The notes beneath the pieces were generated by a model, which saw only the letters and a list, made by a program, of their open reading frames with translations, did not search any database and was not told the origin of the DNA. Below are positions 21,972-33,030 of a stretch of DNA of 39,990 nucleotides, piece by piece. Origin of the DNA: Desulfovibrionaceae bacterium (GTDB taxonomy: Bacteria; Desulfobacterota; Desulfovibrionia; Desulfovibrionales; Desulfovibrionaceae); NCBI GenBank assembly GCA_016932995.1, contig JAFGBU010000004.1, forward strand, positions 1-39,990. Direction: 5' to 3'. A program made the translations under genes and the position numbers. Within the stretch, counting starts at the first letter, position 1, and each line of letters opens with the position of its first letter.

Positions 21972-23402
21972 TTGAAGACCAAGATCGTGGCCACCTTGGG
22001 CCCGGCCTCGGTGGACCCCAGGACCATGAAGGCCATGGTCAGGGCCGGGGTGCGCATCTTCCGGCTCAACTTCTCGCACGCCGACGCGGCCTATTTCCGG
22101 CCCATTGTCCGGACCATACGCGGGCTTGAGCGCGAGCTGGACCTGACCCTGACGGCCATGGCCGATCTGTGCGGCCCCAAGATACGAATCTCCGAGGTCA
22201 AGGGCTCGCCGCTGAACGTGGACCAGGGCGGCAGGGCCTATCTCGGCCTGCCCGGCTCCGCCCGGCTGGTCCCGGACCAGGCCGCGCCCTTTCTCGGCCT
22301 GGACCTGGCCGAGGCCTTGAGGGGCCTGGACGCGGGCGCGGCCGTGGACGTGAGCGACGGCATGCTCCAGTTCACGGTCCGCAAGGTCCTGAAGGCGGAC
22401 GAGCTCTTCGAGCTTCGCGCGGACAATCCCGGAATCCTGACCTCGCACAAGGGCATCGCCTTTCCCGGCCGGACAGTGCCCCTGCCCGCGCTAACGGACA
22501 AGGACCGGCGCGACATCCGCCAGGCCCTGGCCATCGGCGTGGACGCCGCGGCCATCTCCTTTGTCCAGACCCCGGAGGACGTCCGGGACCTGAAGGACGA
22601 GATCGCCTCGATCGGCCGCTGGGTGCCGGTGGTGGTCAAGCTGGAGCGCAAGCCCGCGGTGGACAACCTGGAGGCCATCCTGGACCTGGCCGACGGGGTC
22701 ATGGTCGCCAGGGGCGACCTGGGCCTGGAGTGCCCCATGCCCGACCTGCCGGTCCTGCAGAAGGAGATCATCGCCGCCTGCCGCAGGCGGGAGAAGCCGG
22801 TCATCGTGGCCACGCAGATGCTTCTGTCCATGGTCAACAACCCCATGCCCACCAGGGCCGAGGTCACCGACGTGGCCAACGCCATCATGGACGGCGCGGA
22901 CTGCGTCATGCTCTCCGAGGAGACGGCCATAGGCCGCAATCCGGTCAAGGTCGTGGAGTCCATGCGGGCCATAGCCCGGAGCGCCGAGGCCTTTATCATC
23001 AAGCAGGCCAGGGGGCCCGTGGGCTCGCTGGACAACAAGGCTGATCCGGAAAGGACCCTGGCCTATTGCGCCTGCCTCTTGGCCGAGCAGACCGGGTCCG
23101 AGGCCCTGGTCTGCCACACCCGTTCCGGGATCACGGCCCAGAGGGTCAGCGGCAGGCGGCCCAGGCAGCCGATCTACGCCCTGACCCCCGATCCCGCGGT
23201 CCTGCACCTGCTGAACATGTGCTGGGGCGTGACCCCGAGGCTGGTCGGCCGCAGGCTCAAGAGCCACCTGGGCCGCTGCCAGAGGTTCGTGCAGGACTCC
23301 GCGCTCTTCTCCCCGGGCCGGAGCGTGGTCATCACCGCGGGCCAGAAGACCCCGGGCCGGGACGACCTGCACACCAACGAGGTCAAGGTCTACTACAAGT
23401 AG
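21972..23402 (+). CDS. pyk: Pyruvate kinase
   Basis: Pyruvate kinase converts phosphoenolpyruvate and ADP to pyruvate and ATP, the last step of glycolysis. The 476-residue protein has the N-terminal TKIVATLGPAS, the FRLNFSHA segment, the active-site region VVVKLERKPAVDNLEAI with its Lys and Glu, the following MVARGDLGLE motif, and a C-terminal regulatory domain. The start is TTG with AGGAGGG 8 bases upstream; homologues start at this point. Its stop overlaps the end of the convergent mqnA gene by 10 bases. Confidence 0.97.
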   Translation: MKTKIVATLGPASVDPRTMKAMVRAGVRIFRLNFSHADAAYFRPIVRTIRGLERELDLTLTAMADLCGPKIRISEVKGSPLNVDQGGRAYLGLPGSARLVPDQAAPFLGLDLAEALRGLDAGAAVDVSDGMLQFTVRKVLKADELFELRADNPGILTSHKGIAFPGRTVPLPALTDKDRRDIRQALAIGVDAAAISFVQTPEDVRDLKDEIASIGRWVPVVVKLERKPAVDNLEAILDLADGVMVARGDLGLECPMPDLPVLQKEIIAACRRREKPVIVATQMLLSMVNNPMPTRAEVTDVANAIMDGADCVMLSEETAIGRNPVKVVESMRAIARSAEAFIIKQARGPVGSLDNKADPERTLAYCACLLAEQTGSEALVCHTRSGITAQRVSGRRPRQPIYALTPDPAVLHLLNMCWGVTPRLVGRRLKSHLGRCQRFVQDSALFSPGRSVVITAGQKTPGRDDLHTNEVKVYYK

Positions 23403-24250
23403 TCCTGGTCCGCGCCGGGCATGAACTCCAGGTCCGGGGCCCGGGCGATGAGCCCGATGCGGGCCAGCTTGTCCAGGAAGAGGTTGAGGCCCTGCTTCTC
23501 CTCCTCGCCCAGGTCGTAGACCAGGCCGTTGAAGTAGGAGCACATCTCGGCTTGGTCCAGGACGCTCTTTTCCGCGGCCAGGGCGCACAGCTCGGGCAGC
23601 CGGCGCAGGCCCAGGTCCTTGGCTTGCGCCAGCAGGGCGCAGGCCCGGGCCATGTCCCGAGGCCTGTCCAGGGCGGCCCTGCGCTGCACGATCCAGACCC
23701 CGAAGATGAACGGCAGCCCGGTCCAGGAGCGCCAGGCCTCGCCCAGGTCCAACTTGTGCGGGTAGTCGGCCCTGTTGCGCAGGGCAAGGGCCTCGTCGCC
23801 TATGGCCAGGATGGCCGCGGGCCGGCCGCCGCTCTCCAGCCGCGCGCTGGCCTCCCCGACCTCGAACGCCGCGTCCAGGCCCAGGTGGCTGGACAGGATG
23901 AGCCTTAAGAGCGCGGCCGAGGTGTGGGTCTGGGCGCTGACCAGGATGATCGAGCCGCCGAGGTCCTCCACCGGGACCCGGCTGATCAGAAGCACGCTCT
24001 GGACCGGCCCCCGGCTGCCGATGGCCAGGTTCGGGACCAGGAGGTAGCGCTCCGGGTTTCTGGCGTACTCGATGCTCGAGGCCGAGGACAGGTCCAGGCC
24101 GCCTTGGGCCATGAGCGCGTTCAGCTCGGCCGGGGTCCCGTAGACGAACTCGAAGGGGTTGGCCAGGGCCTTTGTCTCCAGGGGGTGGTAGATGGGCAGG
24201 ACGTTGAGGTAGCGCATCCTGCCCAGCTTAACCGGGCGCTTTGCGCTCAC
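23393..24250 (-). CDS. mqnA: Chorismate dehydratase, futalosine menaquinone pathway
   Basis: MqnA dehydrates chorismate to 3-[(1-carboxyvinyl)oxy]benzoate, the first step of the futalosine route to menaquinone. The 285-residue protein has the family start (RMRYLNVLPIYHPLE), the SSIEYA segment and the conserved AILAIGDEAL motif. The GTG at 24250 overlaps the mqnC stop by 4 bases (GTGA), so this start is favoured over the ATG nine codons later. It is the last gene of the tetR-mqnE-mqnC-mqnA chain. Confidence 0.93.
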   Translation of the reverse strand: MSAKRPVKLGRMRYLNVLPIYHPLETKALANPFEFVYGTPAELNALMAQGGLDLSSASSIEYARNPERYLLVPNLAIGSRGPVQSVLLISRVPVEDLGGSIILVSAQTHTSAALLRLILSSHLGLDAAFEVGEASARLESGGRPAAILAIGDEALALRNRADYPHKLDLGEAWRSWTGLPFIFGVWIVQRRAALDRPRDMARACALLAQAKDLGLRRLPELCALAAEKSVLDQAEMCSYFNGLVYDLGEEEKQGLNLFLDKLARIGLIARAPDLEFMPGADQDYL

Positions 24251-25347
24251 CTCCGGGCCCCTTGGGCCTGGTCCAGGTAGGAGTAGTCCATGCGCCTCTG
24301 CCTGGGCCTGAACCCGGCGGCCCGGATGAGCCGCTCGATCTCCTCCCTGGACAGCCTGAAGCTCACGCCCGCGGCCCGGACCACGTTCTCCTCGATCATG
24401 GTCGAGCCGAAGTCGTTGCCCCCGAAGAACAGGGCCAGCTGGGCGATCTTGGCCCCCATGGTCACCCAGGAGACCTGGAGGTTGTCGAAGTTGTCCAGGA
24501 TCAGCCTGGAGGCGGCCAGGAGCCGCAGATACTCCGGGCTGGTCAGGGGCCGGGCCTGGATGGCCGTGTTTTGGGGCTGGAAGGTCCAGGGGATGAAGGC
24601 CGTGAAGCCGTGGGTCCTGTCCTGGAGCGCGCGCAGGGCCAGGAGGTGCTCGACGCGCTGGCCCGGGGTCTCCAGGTGCCCGAACATCATGGTCGCCGTG
24701 GTCCTGAGGCCCTGGCCGTGGGCCGCCTCCATGACCTCGATCCACTGCCGGGCCGTGCACTTGTTGGGCGAGACCCGGGAGCGGACCTCGTCGACCAGTA
24801 TCTCGGCCCCGCCGCCCGGGATGGAGTCCAGGCCGGCGCGCTTGAGCCTGGCGATGACCTGGGCCGCGGAGAGCCCGGAGAGCTTGGCGAAGTGCCATAT
24901 CTCGGGCGGGGAAAAGGCGTGCACGTGGATATCGAACTCGGCCTTTATGAACGCCAACAGGTCCTCGTAAAAGGACAGGGGCAGGTCCGGGTGGTGGCCG
25001 CCCTGCATGAGTATCTGGGTGCCGCCGAGATCGATCGTCTCCTGGATTTTTTGGGCCAATTCGTCTTTTGAGAGCACGAAGCCGCCCTCCTGGCCCGGGG
25101 CGCGGAAGTAGGCGCAGAAGCGGCAGCCGCAGACGCAGATGTTGGAGTAGTTTATGTTCCGGTCGCCGACATAGGTGACCACGGGCTCGGGGTGCTTTTT
25201 GAGCCGGACCTCGTGGGCCGCGCGGCCCAGGTCGTGGAGCCCCGCGTCCAGGTACACGGCCAGGGCCTCGGAGGGCTCCAGGCGGCCGCCGGAAACGGCC
25301 CTGTGCAGCAGGTCCCGGACCTCGACCGGGGTGTCTTCGGCGTTCAT
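24247..25347 (-). CDS. mqnC: Cyclic dehypoxanthinyl futalosine synthase (radical SAM)
   Basis: MqnC is a radical SAM enzyme that cyclises dehypoxanthine futalosine, the third or fourth step of the pathway. The 366-residue protein has the CX3CX2C iron-sulfur motif (Cys 71, 75, 78), the SIPGGGAEIL segment and the MqnC-type GGNDFGSTMIEENVV near the C-terminus. Its ATG overlaps the mqnE stop by 4 bases. It is paralogous to mqnE next door, and the assignment rests on the segments named. Confidence 0.93.
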   Translation of the reverse strand: MNAEDTPVEVRDLLHRAVSGGRLEPSEALAVYLDAGLHDLGRAAHEVRLKKHPEPVVTYVGDRNINYSNICVCGCRFCAYFRAPGQEGGFVLSKDELAQKIQETIDLGGTQILMQGGHHPDLPLSFYEDLLAFIKAEFDIHVHAFSPPEIWHFAKLSGLSAAQVIARLKRAGLDSIPGGGAEILVDEVRSRVSPNKCTARQWIEVMEAAHGQGLRTTATMMFGHLETPGQRVEHLLALRALQDRTHGFTAFIPWTFQPQNTAIQARPLTSPEYLRLLAASRLILDNFDNLQVSWVTMGAKIAQLALFFGGNDFGSTMIEENVVRAAGVSFRLSREEIERLIRAAGFRPRQRRMDYSYLDQAQGARR

Positions 25348-26447
25348 GCGCCCTCCACGGGGTTGAACAAGGAGTCCCGTTCAACGGGCGTGAGCCCGCA
25401 GCCCCGGATCATGTCCTCGATCTCCGCGCGGCTTAAGGCCTGCTCGGACGCGGCCCCGGCCATGTGCCCGATCTTCTCCTCGACCACTGTGCCGTCGAAG
25501 TCGTCGGCCCCGAAAAACAGCGCGGCCTGGGCCTGCTTGACCGTGAGCATGACCCAGTAGGCCTTGATGTGGGCTATGTTGTCGAGCATCAGCCTGGAGA
25601 CCGCGATGGTCTTGAGCTCCTCCAGGCCGGTGAGCGGCTGCTCGACCTTGAGCCGGCTGTTCTCGGTCTGGAAGGGCAGGGGGATGAAGCAGACAAAGCC
25701 CCTGGAGGCGTCCTGCTGCCTCCTGAGCAGGTCCAGGTGCTCGATCCTGTGCCTCGGGCTTTCCAGGTGGCCGAAGAGCATGGTGCAGTTGGTCCTTATG
25801 CCCAGGTCGTGGGCCTGGCCGTGGATGCGCAGCCAGGTCTGTGCGTCGATCTTCTTGGGGCAGATTTTGGCCCGCACCTCGGGGTCGAATATCTCGGCCC
25901 CGCCCCCGGGGAGCATGTCCAGGCCGGCCTGCTTGAGGGCCTTGAGGACCTCTTCGGTCTCCAGGCCCTCGAGGCGCGCGAAATGGGCGATCTCCACCGC
26001 GGTGAAGCACTTGAGGGTCGCCTCGGGCAGGGCAAGCCTTATGCGCCGCAGGATTTCGACGAAGTGGGCCAGGCCGAGGGTCGGGTGGCAGCCGCCCACG
26101 ATGTGGATCTCCCTGGGCCGGAACGGGTTGCGGTTGATCTTGTCCAGGATCTGGTCCACGCTGAGGGCAAAGGCCCCGTCCTGGCCCTCGCGGCGCTGGA
26201 AGGCGCAGAAGGCGCAGCCGTTGACGCAGACGTTCGAGTAGTTGACGTGTTGGTTGAGGACGTAGAATGCGGCCCGGCCGTTTATTCGCCTGCGGCAGTG
26301 GTCGGCCAGGGCGCCCACGGCCAGGGGGTCGGGACAGGCCAGGAGCCTTTCTCCCTCGGCCAAATCCAGGCGCTCGCCCGAAAGGACCTTGTCCAGGACC
26401 AGGCCGAGGCCCAGGTTTTCGAAACGCTTTTTGTCCACCGAGTTCAT
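25344..26447 (-). CDS. mqnE: Aminodeoxyfutalosine synthase (radical SAM)
   Basis: MqnE joins the MqnA product to the adenosyl part of SAM, giving 6-amino-6-deoxyfutalosine. The 367-residue protein has the CX3CX2C cluster motif (Cys 74, 78, 81), HIVGGCHPTLGL and the MqnE-type GADDFDGTVVEEKI near the end. The ATG at 26447 overlaps the tetR stop as ATGA; an open frame 11 codons upstream lies inside tetR and is rejected. The overlap predicts coupled translation and shared control with tetR. Confidence 0.94.
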   Translation of the reverse strand: MNSVDKKRFENLGLGLVLDKVLSGERLDLAEGERLLACPDPLAVGALADHCRRRINGRAAFYVLNQHVNYSNVCVNGCAFCAFQRREGQDGAFALSVDQILDKINRNPFRPREIHIVGGCHPTLGLAHFVEILRRIRLALPEATLKCFTAVEIAHFARLEGLETEEVLKALKQAGLDMLPGGGAEIFDPEVRAKICPKKIDAQTWLRIHGQAHDLGIRTNCTMLFGHLESPRHRIEHLDLLRRQQDASRGFVCFIPLPFQTENSRLKVEQPLTGLEELKTIAVSRLMLDNIAHIKAYWVMLTVKQAQAALFFGADDFDGTVVEEKIGHMAGAASEQALSRAEIEDMIRGCGLTPVERDSLFNPVEGA

Positions 26448-27088
26448 CTCCCCAGGCCCTGGCGCAGAAAGTCCACGCACTGGCCGATTTTTTTTGCGAC
26501 CTCGGCCCGGTCGGCCCTGAACAGCCCGGCCCCGGCGTCCATGAAGGGCACGCTCAGGGCCTGGAGAAAGCGGTCCATGACCGCGTCCAGGAAGAACACG
26601 ATCATGGCCGGGTCCAGGCCCGGCCGCAGCTCGCCCCTGGCCCGGGCCTGGTCCACCAGGGGCCTCAGGTACTTGGCCGAGTACAGGCGGATCTCCGAGA
26701 GGTGTGTTTCGCGCCTGGGAAAGTCCTCCTGAAAGAGCATCTTCAGGTAGATGCGGTAGATGAGCGGGTGTTCTTCTATGAACCGCGCGCCCGTGGCCAG
26801 GCTGAGGCGCAGGCGCTCGAACAGGTCCTGGTTTGCGCTCGATTGCGCGGCCTGCCTCAATGGGCCCTTGAACAGCCCGACCGAGTGCCTGAAAAGGTAC
26901 TCGAAGAGCCCCTCCTTGGTGCCGAAATATTTGAATATCGAGCCCTTGGCGATGCTCAGCCCGGCGGCCATGCGGTTGACGCTGGCCCGGTGGAAGCCGT
27001 GCTCGGCGAACTCGCTCGCGGCCGCGTCCAGGACGCGTTGTTTTTTTTCGTCCCGCAGGCGCTCGAAGGTCTCGACGCCCTGGTTCAT
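26444..27088 (-). CDS. TetR-family regulator, probable repressor of the mqn locus
   Basis: The 214-residue protein has a TetR helix-turn-helix at about residues 20-65, with ASEFAEHGFHRASVNRMA and the typical IAKGSIFKYFGTKEGLFEYLF, followed by an all-helical ligand domain. It is the first gene of a chain with mqnE, mqnC and mqnA, and a perfect palindrome lies 31 bases before its start. Repression of its own operon and of the divergent mqnD is inferred from this layout. The effector is unknown. A menaquinone precursor or an acyl/lipid ligand is conceivable. Confidence 0.93.
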   Translation of the reverse strand: MNQGVETFERLRDEKKQRVLDAAASEFAEHGFHRASVNRMAAGLSIAKGSIFKYFGTKEGLFEYLFRHSVGLFKGPLRQAAQSSANQDLFERLRLSLATGARFIEEHPLIYRIYLKMLFQEDFPRRETHLSEIRLYSAKYLRPLVDQARARGELRPGLDPAMIVFFLDAVMDRFLQALSVPFMDAGAGLFRADRAEVAKKIGQCVDFLRQGLGR

Positions 27089-27092
27089 TTCC

Positions 27093-27121
27093 TTGCCTTT
27101 GATTTGCTCATGCCGTAAAAG
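27093..27121 (+). promoter_or_regulatory. Predicted promoter for mqnD
   Basis: TTGCCT (27093-27098) and TAAAAG (27116-27121) are separated by 17 bases. The -10 element overlaps the first bases of the 20-bp palindrome. The first part lies in the tetR leader. It is a pattern match only. Confidence 0.45.
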
Positions 27122-27138
27122 TGACCAGGTGGTCACTT
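27119..27138. promoter_or_regulatory. Predicted operator: perfect 20-bp inverted repeat
   Basis: AAGTGACCA and TGGTCACTT form perfect 9-base arms around a GG centre. The site lies between the divergent tetR and mqnD genes and touches the predicted -10 box on each side. Such a palindrome beside a tetR gene is the usual form of a TetR-family operator. A CRP/FNR-type regulator reading GTGA half-sites is an alternative reader. Confidence 0.75.
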
Positions 27139-27165
27139 CTAGCCGAGCCGGGCCGCAGATGTCAA
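27136..27165 (-). promoter_or_regulatory. Predicted promoter for tetR-mqnE-mqnC-mqnA
   Basis: Reading the minus strand, a perfect TTGACA (27165-27160) is followed after 18 bases by TAGAAG (27141-27136), which matches the -10 consensus at four positions. The -10 overlaps the palindrome, so a bound repressor would block it. Confidence 0.55.
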
Positions 27166-27190: not shown

Positions 27191-28045
27191 GTGGCCGAGG
27201 GGGTCTTGAGCCTGGGGCATTCGCCCTGCCCGAACGACACGTTCATCTTTTACGCCCTGACCCACGGCCTGGTCCCTGCCCCGTGCGCGGGCCTGGACCT
27301 GACCCTGGCCGACGTGGAGGTCTTGAACCGTCTGGCCGCGCAGGGGGCGATGGACGTGTGCAAGGTCTCGGTTGCGGCCGCGGCCGGGATACTGGAGCAA
27401 TATGTTTTGCTGCGCTCGGGCGGGGCCATGGGCCGAGGCGTGGGCCCGCTTGTGGTCGCCCGCAAGCCCTTGAGGATTCAGGACCTTGAGGGCAAGGCCG
27501 TGGCCGCGCCCGGGCCCGGGACCACGGCCGGCCTGCTTTTGAATATGCTCTGCCGCGAGGCCGGGGTGGCCGTGCGCCAGGAGCACATGGTCTTTGACCA
27601 GGTCATGCCCGCCGTGGCCCAAGGCGCAGTCGAGGCCGGGGTGGTCATCCACGAGGGCCGGTTCACCTTTGGCGGCCTGGGCCTGGTCCTGGTCCAGGAC
27701 CTGGGCCAATGGTGGGAGGGGCGCTTCAACCTGCCCCTGCCCCTGGGCGCGATCGCGGCCAGGCGCGATCTGGGCCGGTCCGTGCTTCGTGGCCTGGACC
27801 AGGCCGTGCGCCACAGCCTGCTGTTCGCCCGGCAGAATCGGGACGCGGTTTGGCCGTATGTCAAAAGCCTTGCCCGGGAGATGGACGACGCGGTGATCGA
27901 AAGGCACATAACGACCTTTGTCAACGACTTCAGCCTGGATGTCGGGCTTGAGGGCGAAAGGGCCGCGGCCGTTCTCCTGGCCGAGTCGGCCAGGGCCCGG
28001 GGTCTGGCCCTGGCGGACAAGGAAATCTTTTTGTCAGCCGGCTGA
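27191..28045 (+). CDS. mqnD: 1,4-dihydroxy-6-naphthoate synthase
   Basis: MqnD converts cyclic dehypoxanthinyl futalosine to 1,4-dihydroxy-6-naphthoate, the ring precursor of menaquinone. The 284-residue protein has the diagnostic GHSPCPNDTFIFYAL start and a periplasmic-binding-like fold with a VIHEGRFTF segment. The GTG at 27191 has AAGGGGG 6 bases upstream. It is transcribed away from the tetR-mqnECA chain from a shared control region. No mqnB (hydrolase) is present in the window. Confidence 0.94.
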   Translation: MAEGVLSLGHSPCPNDTFIFYALTHGLVPAPCAGLDLTLADVEVLNRLAAQGAMDVCKVSVAAAAGILEQYVLLRSGGAMGRGVGPLVVARKPLRIQDLEGKAVAAPGPGTTAGLLLNMLCREAGVAVRQEHMVFDQVMPAVAQGAVEAGVVIHEGRFTFGGLGLVLVQDLGQWWEGRFNLPLPLGAIAARRDLGRSVLRGLDQAVRHSLLFARQNRDAVWPYVKSLAREMDDAVIERHITTFVNDFSLDVGLEGERAAAVLLAESARARGLALADKEIFLSAG

Positions 28046-32258: not shown

Positions 32259-32895
32259 CCCAGTCGGCCCGGCCCTGCGGGTCTTCGCCGGGATATCGGC
32301 CCTGATGGCCCTTTCGGTCTGCGTCTGCGCCTGCGTCAAGCTCGACAGGCCCTCGCTGGACAAGCGCTACTTCGACCTCGAGATCGGCCGGCCCGGGCCG
32401 GCCGCGCAGGCGGACAACGACACGGTCCTGGCCCTGCGCAGGCTCAGGGTTTCGCCGCGCTACCAGGGCCGGGAGCTGGTCTACAAGACCGGGGACAACG
32501 AGTTCTCCTCGGACTTCTACAACCTGTTCTTCGTGCCCCCGGCGGACATGCTCGGCCAGGACCTGAGGGAGTGGATCGAGGCCGCCGGGCTCTTCGGGCA
32601 CGTCGTGGACACGGCCAGCCTGGCGCCTGCGGACCTGGTCCTGGAGGCCGCGGTCAACAGGCTCTACGCGGACTTGAGCGCCACTCCGGCCAGGGCCGTG
32701 GCCGAGATGCAGTTCATTATGCTCCGGGATGTCTCGGGCAAAGACGAGATCGTGTTCAGCGCGGCCTACGAGGCGGCCCTGCCTGTGGAGCGGGACTCGC
32801 CCCAGGGCCTGGTCCGGGCCATGCGCAAGGCCGTTGCCGAGGTCTTCGCGCGGCTGGAGGCGGACCTGCGGGCCGCCGGGCCGGGCAGGCCCTAG
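32251..32895 (+). CDS. ABC-type transport auxiliary lipoprotein, PqiC-like
   Basis: The 214-residue product is a predicted outer-membrane lipoprotein of the PqiC/DUF330 group that works with MCE systems. The N-terminal signal segment ends at a cysteine cluster (Cys 24, 26, 28); VCAC, with Cys 28, best fits a lipobox, but the exact lipidated residue is unclear. The mature part starts with the family-like KRYFDLEI strand and contains a domain with RRLRVSPRYQGRELVYKT. It overlaps mlaD by 8 bases and is probably the last gene of the operon. Confidence 0.87.
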   Translation: MSSPVGPALRVFAGISALMALSVCVCACVKLDRPSLDKRYFDLEIGRPGPAAQADNDTVLALRRLRVSPRYQGRELVYKTGDNEFSSDFYNLFFVPPADMLGQDLREWIEAAGLFGHVVDTASLAPADLVLEAAVNRLYADLSATPARAVAEMQFIMLRDVSGKDEIVFSAAYEAALPVERDSPQGLVRAMRKAVAEVFARLEADLRAAGPGRP

Positions 32896-33030
32896 GAGGT
32901 TGTTGATAAACAACCTCCGCGCGCCAGGACGGCGCGCCCGGAATCATCGGCTTCCGATGATTCCGGAGAGTTGGCGAAACCGCGTTTTCGCCGAATCGAG
33001 TTGAAAAAGTCCAGGACGGACTTTTTCAAC
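32895..33030. repeat. Array of five consecutive hairpins between convergent genes
   Basis: Five inverted repeats fill almost the entire gap between the PqiC-like gene and rpe. H1 (32895-32918) has 10-bp arms and loop GATA. H2 (32919-32937) has 7-bp arms and loop AGGAC. H3 (32938-32966) has 13-bp arms and loop CTT. H4 (32973-32992) has 7-bp arms. H5 (33000-33030) has 13-bp arms and loop AGGAC. All arms are perfect as written. H5 could end transcription from either side, but the whole array is more than a terminator needs. H2 and H5 share the 9-mer CCAGGACGG across their loops. Confidence 0.9.

Follow-up and report, generated by a model that had tools for sequence, protein, structure and literature searches.

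A conserved palindrome between tetR and mqnD as the probable operator of a TetR-family regulator of futalosine-pathway genes

Menaquinone (vitamin K2) serves sulfate reducers as an electron carrier in anaerobic respiration. The window analyzed here, a stretch of 39,990 nucleotides from a Desulfovibrionaceae bacterium (assembly GCA_016932995.1, contig JAFGBU010000004.1, positions 1 to 39,990), contains genes of the futalosine route to menaquinone on either side of a 102-bp gap, one of them preceded by a gene for a TetR-family protein. The gap holds a palindrome, and the locus thus raises the question of whether this element is the operator through which a single regulator governs the genes on both sides, as had been suggested in a first-pass annotation of the sequence.

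The mqn locus and its TetR-family protein

On the minus strand, the window encodes a TetR-family regulator of 214 aa (26444-27088), for which we suggest the name MqnR, followed by mqnE (aminofutalosine synthase; 25344-26447), mqnC (cyclic dehypoxanthinyl futalosine synthase; 24247-25347), and mqnA (presumably chorismate dehydratase; 23393-24250). The genes overlap by 4 bp at each junction (ATGA for tetR/mqnE and mqnE/mqnC, GTGA for mqnC/mqnA), an arrangement that would couple the translation of tetR-mqnE-mqnC-mqnA. The plus strand carries mqnD (presumably 1,4-dihydroxy-6-naphthoate synthase; 27191-28045), which has a GTG start with AAGGGGG upstream. MqnE (TIGR03700, 471.2 bits; cut-off 434.55) and MqnC (TIGR03699, 494.3 bits; cut-off 428.1) both score above the curated cut-offs of futalosine-pathway models. 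The products of mqnA and mqnD both match PF02621 (201 and 234 bits, respectively), neither is matched by an NCBIfam model, and the two are named provisionally by their N-terminal motifs. At the far end of the minus-strand unit, mqnA converges with pyk (21972-23402, plus strand), and the 10-bp overlap of their 3' ends (23393-23402) leaves no space where a terminator could fit. Elsewhere in the window, strong inverted repeats at 32939-32965 and 32895-32918 (arms of 12 and 10 bp) lie between convergent genes and are probably terminators.

The assignment of the regulator to the TetR family is supported by an N-terminal helix-turn-helix domain (TetR_N, PF00440; 50.9 bits, cut-off 24) and by an AlphaFold2 model (pLDDT 93.9, pTM 0.87) with the all-helical TetR fold, whereas C-terminal Pfam matches stayed under the cut-off (24.6 and 24.4 versus 27). 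A fold search with the model returned 371 PDB matches at E <= 0.001, and TetR proteins lead the 50 matches listed. Caur_2714 of Chloroflexus aurantiacus (PDB 3nrg), a TetR-family protein with no stated function, is both the best profile match (136.6 bits) and the best fold match (29% identity, TM 0.73). Fatty-acid regulators and RutR are also among the fold matches, which does not thereby identify the ligand. The recognition-helix stretch is nearly invariant across 24 orthologues. Distances among the TetR proteins correlate with those among the MqnE proteins over 43 loci (Mantel r 0.81, 0/999 permutations), as common descent predicts, and this correlation alone is no proof of function.

The palindrome and its association with tetR

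The putative operator spans 27119-27138, is assigned to neither strand, and consists of a 9-bp inverted repeat around a 2-bp center, AAGTGACCA-GG-TGGTCACTT, with the core TGACCA-GG-TGGTCA at 27122-27135. It had been described as a perfect 20-bp inverted repeat; the position and the repeat stand, but the symmetry is imperfect, extending to 18 of the 20 positions, with the central GG being asymmetric. Repeats with arms of at least 9 bp and a spacer of 0 to 4 bp arose in just 3 of 2,000 dinucleotide shuffles of the gap. However, 11 listed matches of the same class, at 10 places, occur across the whole window, and symmetry alone is therefore insufficient for calling an operator and was rejected as evidence for one. 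The core, TGACCANNTGGTCA, is present in a single copy in the 2.48-Mb genome, and a one-mismatch version is found at one other place (C6:5895-5910), within a reading frame.

The operator core of RutR, the TetR-family regulator of pyrimidine use, is probably the same sequence; a literature search for such a RutR-like core yielded no relevant paper. The two proteins have the TetR fold in common and differ in the pathway served; RutR ranks 30th among the fold matches listed, with 18% identity to the window protein, and membership of the latter in the RutR family was rejected by two RutR models (TIGR03613, 33.7 bits versus a cut-off of 368; NF011584, 30.5 versus 230). The palindrome bound by RutR measures about 16 bp (PMC10891134).

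Conservation of the palindrome beside the tetR-mqnE pair had been named beforehand as a test of the proposal, and the comparison within the family bore it out. A protein search of 199 same-family genomes, with orthologues taken as matches scoring 99 bits or more (the runner-up reached 65.9), identified tetR orthologues in 50. The 47 loci first read, which represent 30 of these 50 genomes, all match the core at 11/12 or better. The pattern RTGACCASSYGGTCAY, set after these loci had been read, has a match within 500 bp of the aligned tetR start in 50/50 genomes, including 20 that were examined only after the pattern had been fixed. By contrast, the pattern was matched in only 10 of the 149 family genomes without an orthologue, all 10 matches falling within long, mechanically called reading frames (Fisher 2e-37, a P value overstated by the relatedness of the genomes). 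The reversed control pattern was matched in 2/199 genomes, and an extra operator match in G036 lies within a reading frame. Downstream of tetR, mqnE follows on the same strand 54 to 152 nt behind the tetR match in 49 of the 50 genomes, the 50th having a partial tetR on another contig. Since mqnE exceeds the TIGR03700 cut-off in 132/199 genomes, and most of the 199 have an mqnE-like match, the operator tracks the regulator rather than the pathway as such.

The association extends to the phylum. A profile built from 24 orthologues found matches in 88 of 395 genomes at E <= 1e-25, 77 of them at 150 bits or more, and the strict operator pattern was present in 64 of these 77 genomes versus 15 of the 318 without an orthologue (P of 1e-45, again inflated by relatedness); the reversed control was matched in 6/395. 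We read 76 of the 77 loci, leaving out G028, which was already in the family set; the 76 include the window and G060, and some of the genomes coincide with, or closely resemble, ones read earlier, so that these counts are partly non-independent. Named relatives among those read earlier include Desulfacinum, Pseudodesulfovibrio, Salidesulfovibrio, and Desulfosoma, names that point to Desulfobacterota as the phylum and Desulfovibrionaceae as the family of the window. A core of at least 11/12 lies upstream of tetR in 57 of the 76, and in 49 of these 57 mqnE/mqnC is situated behind tetR; mqnE or mqnC is behind tetR in 50, and 49 have both. Lower-scoring TetR matches (<150 bits) were rejected as family members: among the 7 read of the 22 listed, the strict operator occurs in 0/7, an 11/12 core in 1/7, and a nearby mqnE in 0/7. 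Two individual loci deserve mention: in G244 (L220), operator matches lie both upstream of tetR and on its mqnE side (C78:33561 and 34267), and the match in G054 is at a contig end.

Sites in genomes without an orthologue (15/318 in the phylum, 10/149 in the family) would be expected if the palindrome served a different regulator of more global reach, with the TetR gene as a bystander. Yet the presence of a match follows the orthologue (50/50 and 64/77), the 10 family matches are in reading frames, and of the 5 orthologue-less phylum sites that were read, none is by mqnE, although one is located about 410 bp behind the gene of a different TetR protein. Furthermore, G155 has no tetR orthologue (its best match, at E 1.7e-8, is elsewhere), and in this single genome, where mqnD and mqnE are still divergent, the site is damaged: the core is reduced to 10/12 by changes in the second half-site, whereas the -35 and -10 boxes are kept. 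We regard a global regulator as extremely unlikely.

In some genomes, tetR and mqnE-mqnC lie apart. An upstream core of 11/12 is missing from 19 of the 76 phylum tetR loci, and in 15 of these 19, mqnD comes after tetR in the same orientation, at most 1,500 nt away. One such arrangement, in G542, reads nusB-like gene, tetR, phosphorylase-superfamily nucleosidase (PF01048), mqnD, the nucleosidase being a candidate mqnB. When 18 of the 19 genomes were searched for the exact core TGACCANNYGGTCA, it was found before mqnE-mqnC elsewhere in the genome in 16 (13 + 3); G255 and G502 had no exact core anywhere in the genome. The 19th, G406, has a 10/12 core upstream of tetR; its exact site comes immediately after tetR and precedes mqnE. 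In G213, G365, G470, G250, G388, G507, G285, and G313 (loci L273, L274, L275, L277, L284, L285, L287, and L288), each with tetR at a separate place in the genome, the operator before mqnE is present as paired copies 43 to 57 bp apart, which may point to cooperative binding. Taken as a whole, these comparisons suggest that the palindrome is very probably the binding site of the adjacent TetR-family regulator.

Predicted promoters of the tetR-mqnD gap

The predicted promoter of tetR-mqnE-mqnC-mqnA occupies 27136-27165 on the minus strand, with a -35 box TTGACA (27165-27160), an 18-nt spacer, and a -10 box TAGAAG (27141-27136). That of mqnD, at 27093-27121 on the plus strand, has TTGCCT (27093-27098) and TAAAAG (27116-27121) separated by 17 nt and is the best plus-strand candidate in the gap. 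The palindrome extends 3 bp into the best -10 candidate of either side, in agreement with the first-pass annotation. The promoters had also been called divergent, a term that holds for the genes but not for the promoters, which are face to face rather than back to back: the tetR promoter is the one nearer mqnD and points left, and the mqnD promoter is the one nearer tetR and points right. Both transcription starts, expected about 7 bases past each -10, would fall inside the palindrome. The mqnD -35 box partly coincides with the ribosome-binding-site region of tetR. The tetR leader also contains an 8-codon reading frame, MSKSKARK (27085-27111, minus strand), with an ATGA overlap with the tetR start.

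A generic promoter scan returned 0 sites at its threshold, the consensus match of both predicted promoters is modest, and the case for both rests on conservation. On the tetR side, a -35 box with at least 5/6 consensus bases is found in 46 of the 47 family loci, usually with a 17-nt spacer, and the operator directly follows the -10 box in most of them. Among the 57 phylum loci with an upstream core, a TTGA-type box precedes the core by 24 to 36 nt in 49, versus 2/57 at random positions, and is not at the expected place in 8. On the mqnD side, a TTG box combined with a TA -10 is present in 19 of the 33 loci with a divergent mqnD versus 0 of the 14 without (Fisher 1.2e-4). The distance from this TTG box to the operator is 29 nt in 18 of the 19 loci and 30 nt in one, a constancy partly built into the pattern, which allowed one nucleotide of play, whereas the distance to the tetR start varies between 2 and 12 nt. 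The fixed distance to the operator and the variable one to tetR favor reading the box as part of a promoter over reading it as a ribosome-binding site.

These promoter data bear on whether the palindrome serves the autoregulation of tetR only, with mqnE-mqnC-mqnA affected merely as downstream genes and mqnD not at all. Many TetR proteins do act chiefly on the gene that encodes them, the mqnD-side promoter conforms only weakly to the consensus, and no positioned mqnD promoter was seen in 14 of the 33 loci with a divergent mqnD. However, where tetR is elsewhere, the operator stands before mqnE-mqnC and not before tetR (16/18 genomes), and the positioned mqnD promoter, which constitutes the evidence for control of mqnD, appears only where mqnD is divergent (19/33 versus 0/14). 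Autoregulation alone is accordingly a distinctly unlikely explanation.

A model of repression, wider targets, and known systems

It is highly likely, judging from these genome comparisons, that regulator, operator, and pathway belong together, and the best explanation is that a TetR dimer at the palindrome represses both mqn units and its own gene. The original suggestion that one dimer serves both tetR-mqnE-mqnC-mqnA and mqnD is supported by the conservation of the site and by its position before mqnE in the 16 of 18 genomes with tetR elsewhere. We infer binding of the protein to the palindrome beside its gene, where a dimer would cover the two overlapping start regions of the face-to-face promoters, block RNA polymerase at both, and reduce the expression of both tetR-mqnE-mqnC-mqnA and mqnD, so that tetR would also restrain its own expression. 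The affinity of the protein for DNA would change with a small ligand, probably a quinone or a metabolite of menaquinone synthesis.

The sign of control is likely repression, rather than activation, since operators placed across the -10 box and the transcription start typically serve repression. The protein might instead activate or shift polymerase between the two promoters: some TetR proteins activate, and face-to-face promoters compete for polymerase, so that a bound protein could favor one side. Given that the operator covers the -10 edge and start region of both window promoters and directly follows the tetR-side -10 in most loci, we consider this very unlikely and retain the model of a repressor acting on both units.

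Beyond the locus, exact pattern matches far from tetR occur about 40 to 46 nt before the gene for ADH synthase in G053, G076, G013, and G147 (L087-L090 and L198-L200); of these four genes, the two tested scored 370 and 368 bits with TIGR01949 (cut-off 299). ADH synthase (2-amino-3,7-dideoxy-D-threo-hept-6-ulosonate synthase) starts an alternative route to chorismate, the substrate of MqnA. Regular control of this gene was rejected as a general feature, a core of at least 11/12 being found in 3 of 30 best-copy loci and at a second copy in G147. In G205, a gene for a menaquinone decarboxylase (UbiD family; TIGR03701, 636 bits, cut-off 496) lies behind tetR, and a second operator-like site (11/12, L266:6058-6071) is located between the two. 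The best ADH-synthase copy of the window's own genome has only 9/12 upstream, and we claim no targets there beyond the two mqn units. We offer, tentatively and as a somewhat doubtful extension, an ancestral regulon of Desulfobacterota-like bacteria in which MqnR would read menaquinone supply and set the futalosine genes and, in some lineages, a separate ADH-synthase copy at the chorismate entry as well as a menaquinone decarboxylase, co-tuning quinone and aromatic precursor; the face-to-face promoters would be mutually exclusive for polymerase and form a switch operated by one dimer.

In keeping with the first-pass annotation, which knew of no characterized regulator of this pathway with this layout, the literature searched contained no dedicated regulator of the futalosine route, including the parts consulted of PMC4746308, PMC10891134, PMC5343134, PMC3840689, PMC11505543, and PMC12340547; an unpublished prediction may exist among the 92 Desulfovibrionales regulogs of RegPrecise. 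RegPrecise-type TetR regulons, such as those of FabR, PsrA, and LiuQ (passages of PMC5343134), resemble the present one in having an auto-controlled TetR protein and a conserved palindrome before pathway genes; none of these passages deals with menaquinone, and the words "menaquinone," "futalosine," and "mqn" are absent from that text. The regulon is thus mechanistically ordinary but apparently undescribed. Together, the regulator, the operator, and the list of genomes make the control of quinone supply open to simple binding and deletion tests, and the operator, if confirmed, would offer a small sensor for a menaquinone intermediate.

The closest parallels in layout are bioA/bioBFCD and argECBH of Escherichia coli, in which face-to-face promoters share an operator and one repressor (BirA and ArgR, respectively) stops both units. 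As in these systems, the mqn locus comprises two biosynthetic units read apart from a single putative operator. BirA and ArgR, however, have no relation to TetR, their ligands are biotinyl-AMP and arginine, respectively, and the mqn locus differs from both in that the regulator gene is the first gene of one of the controlled units.
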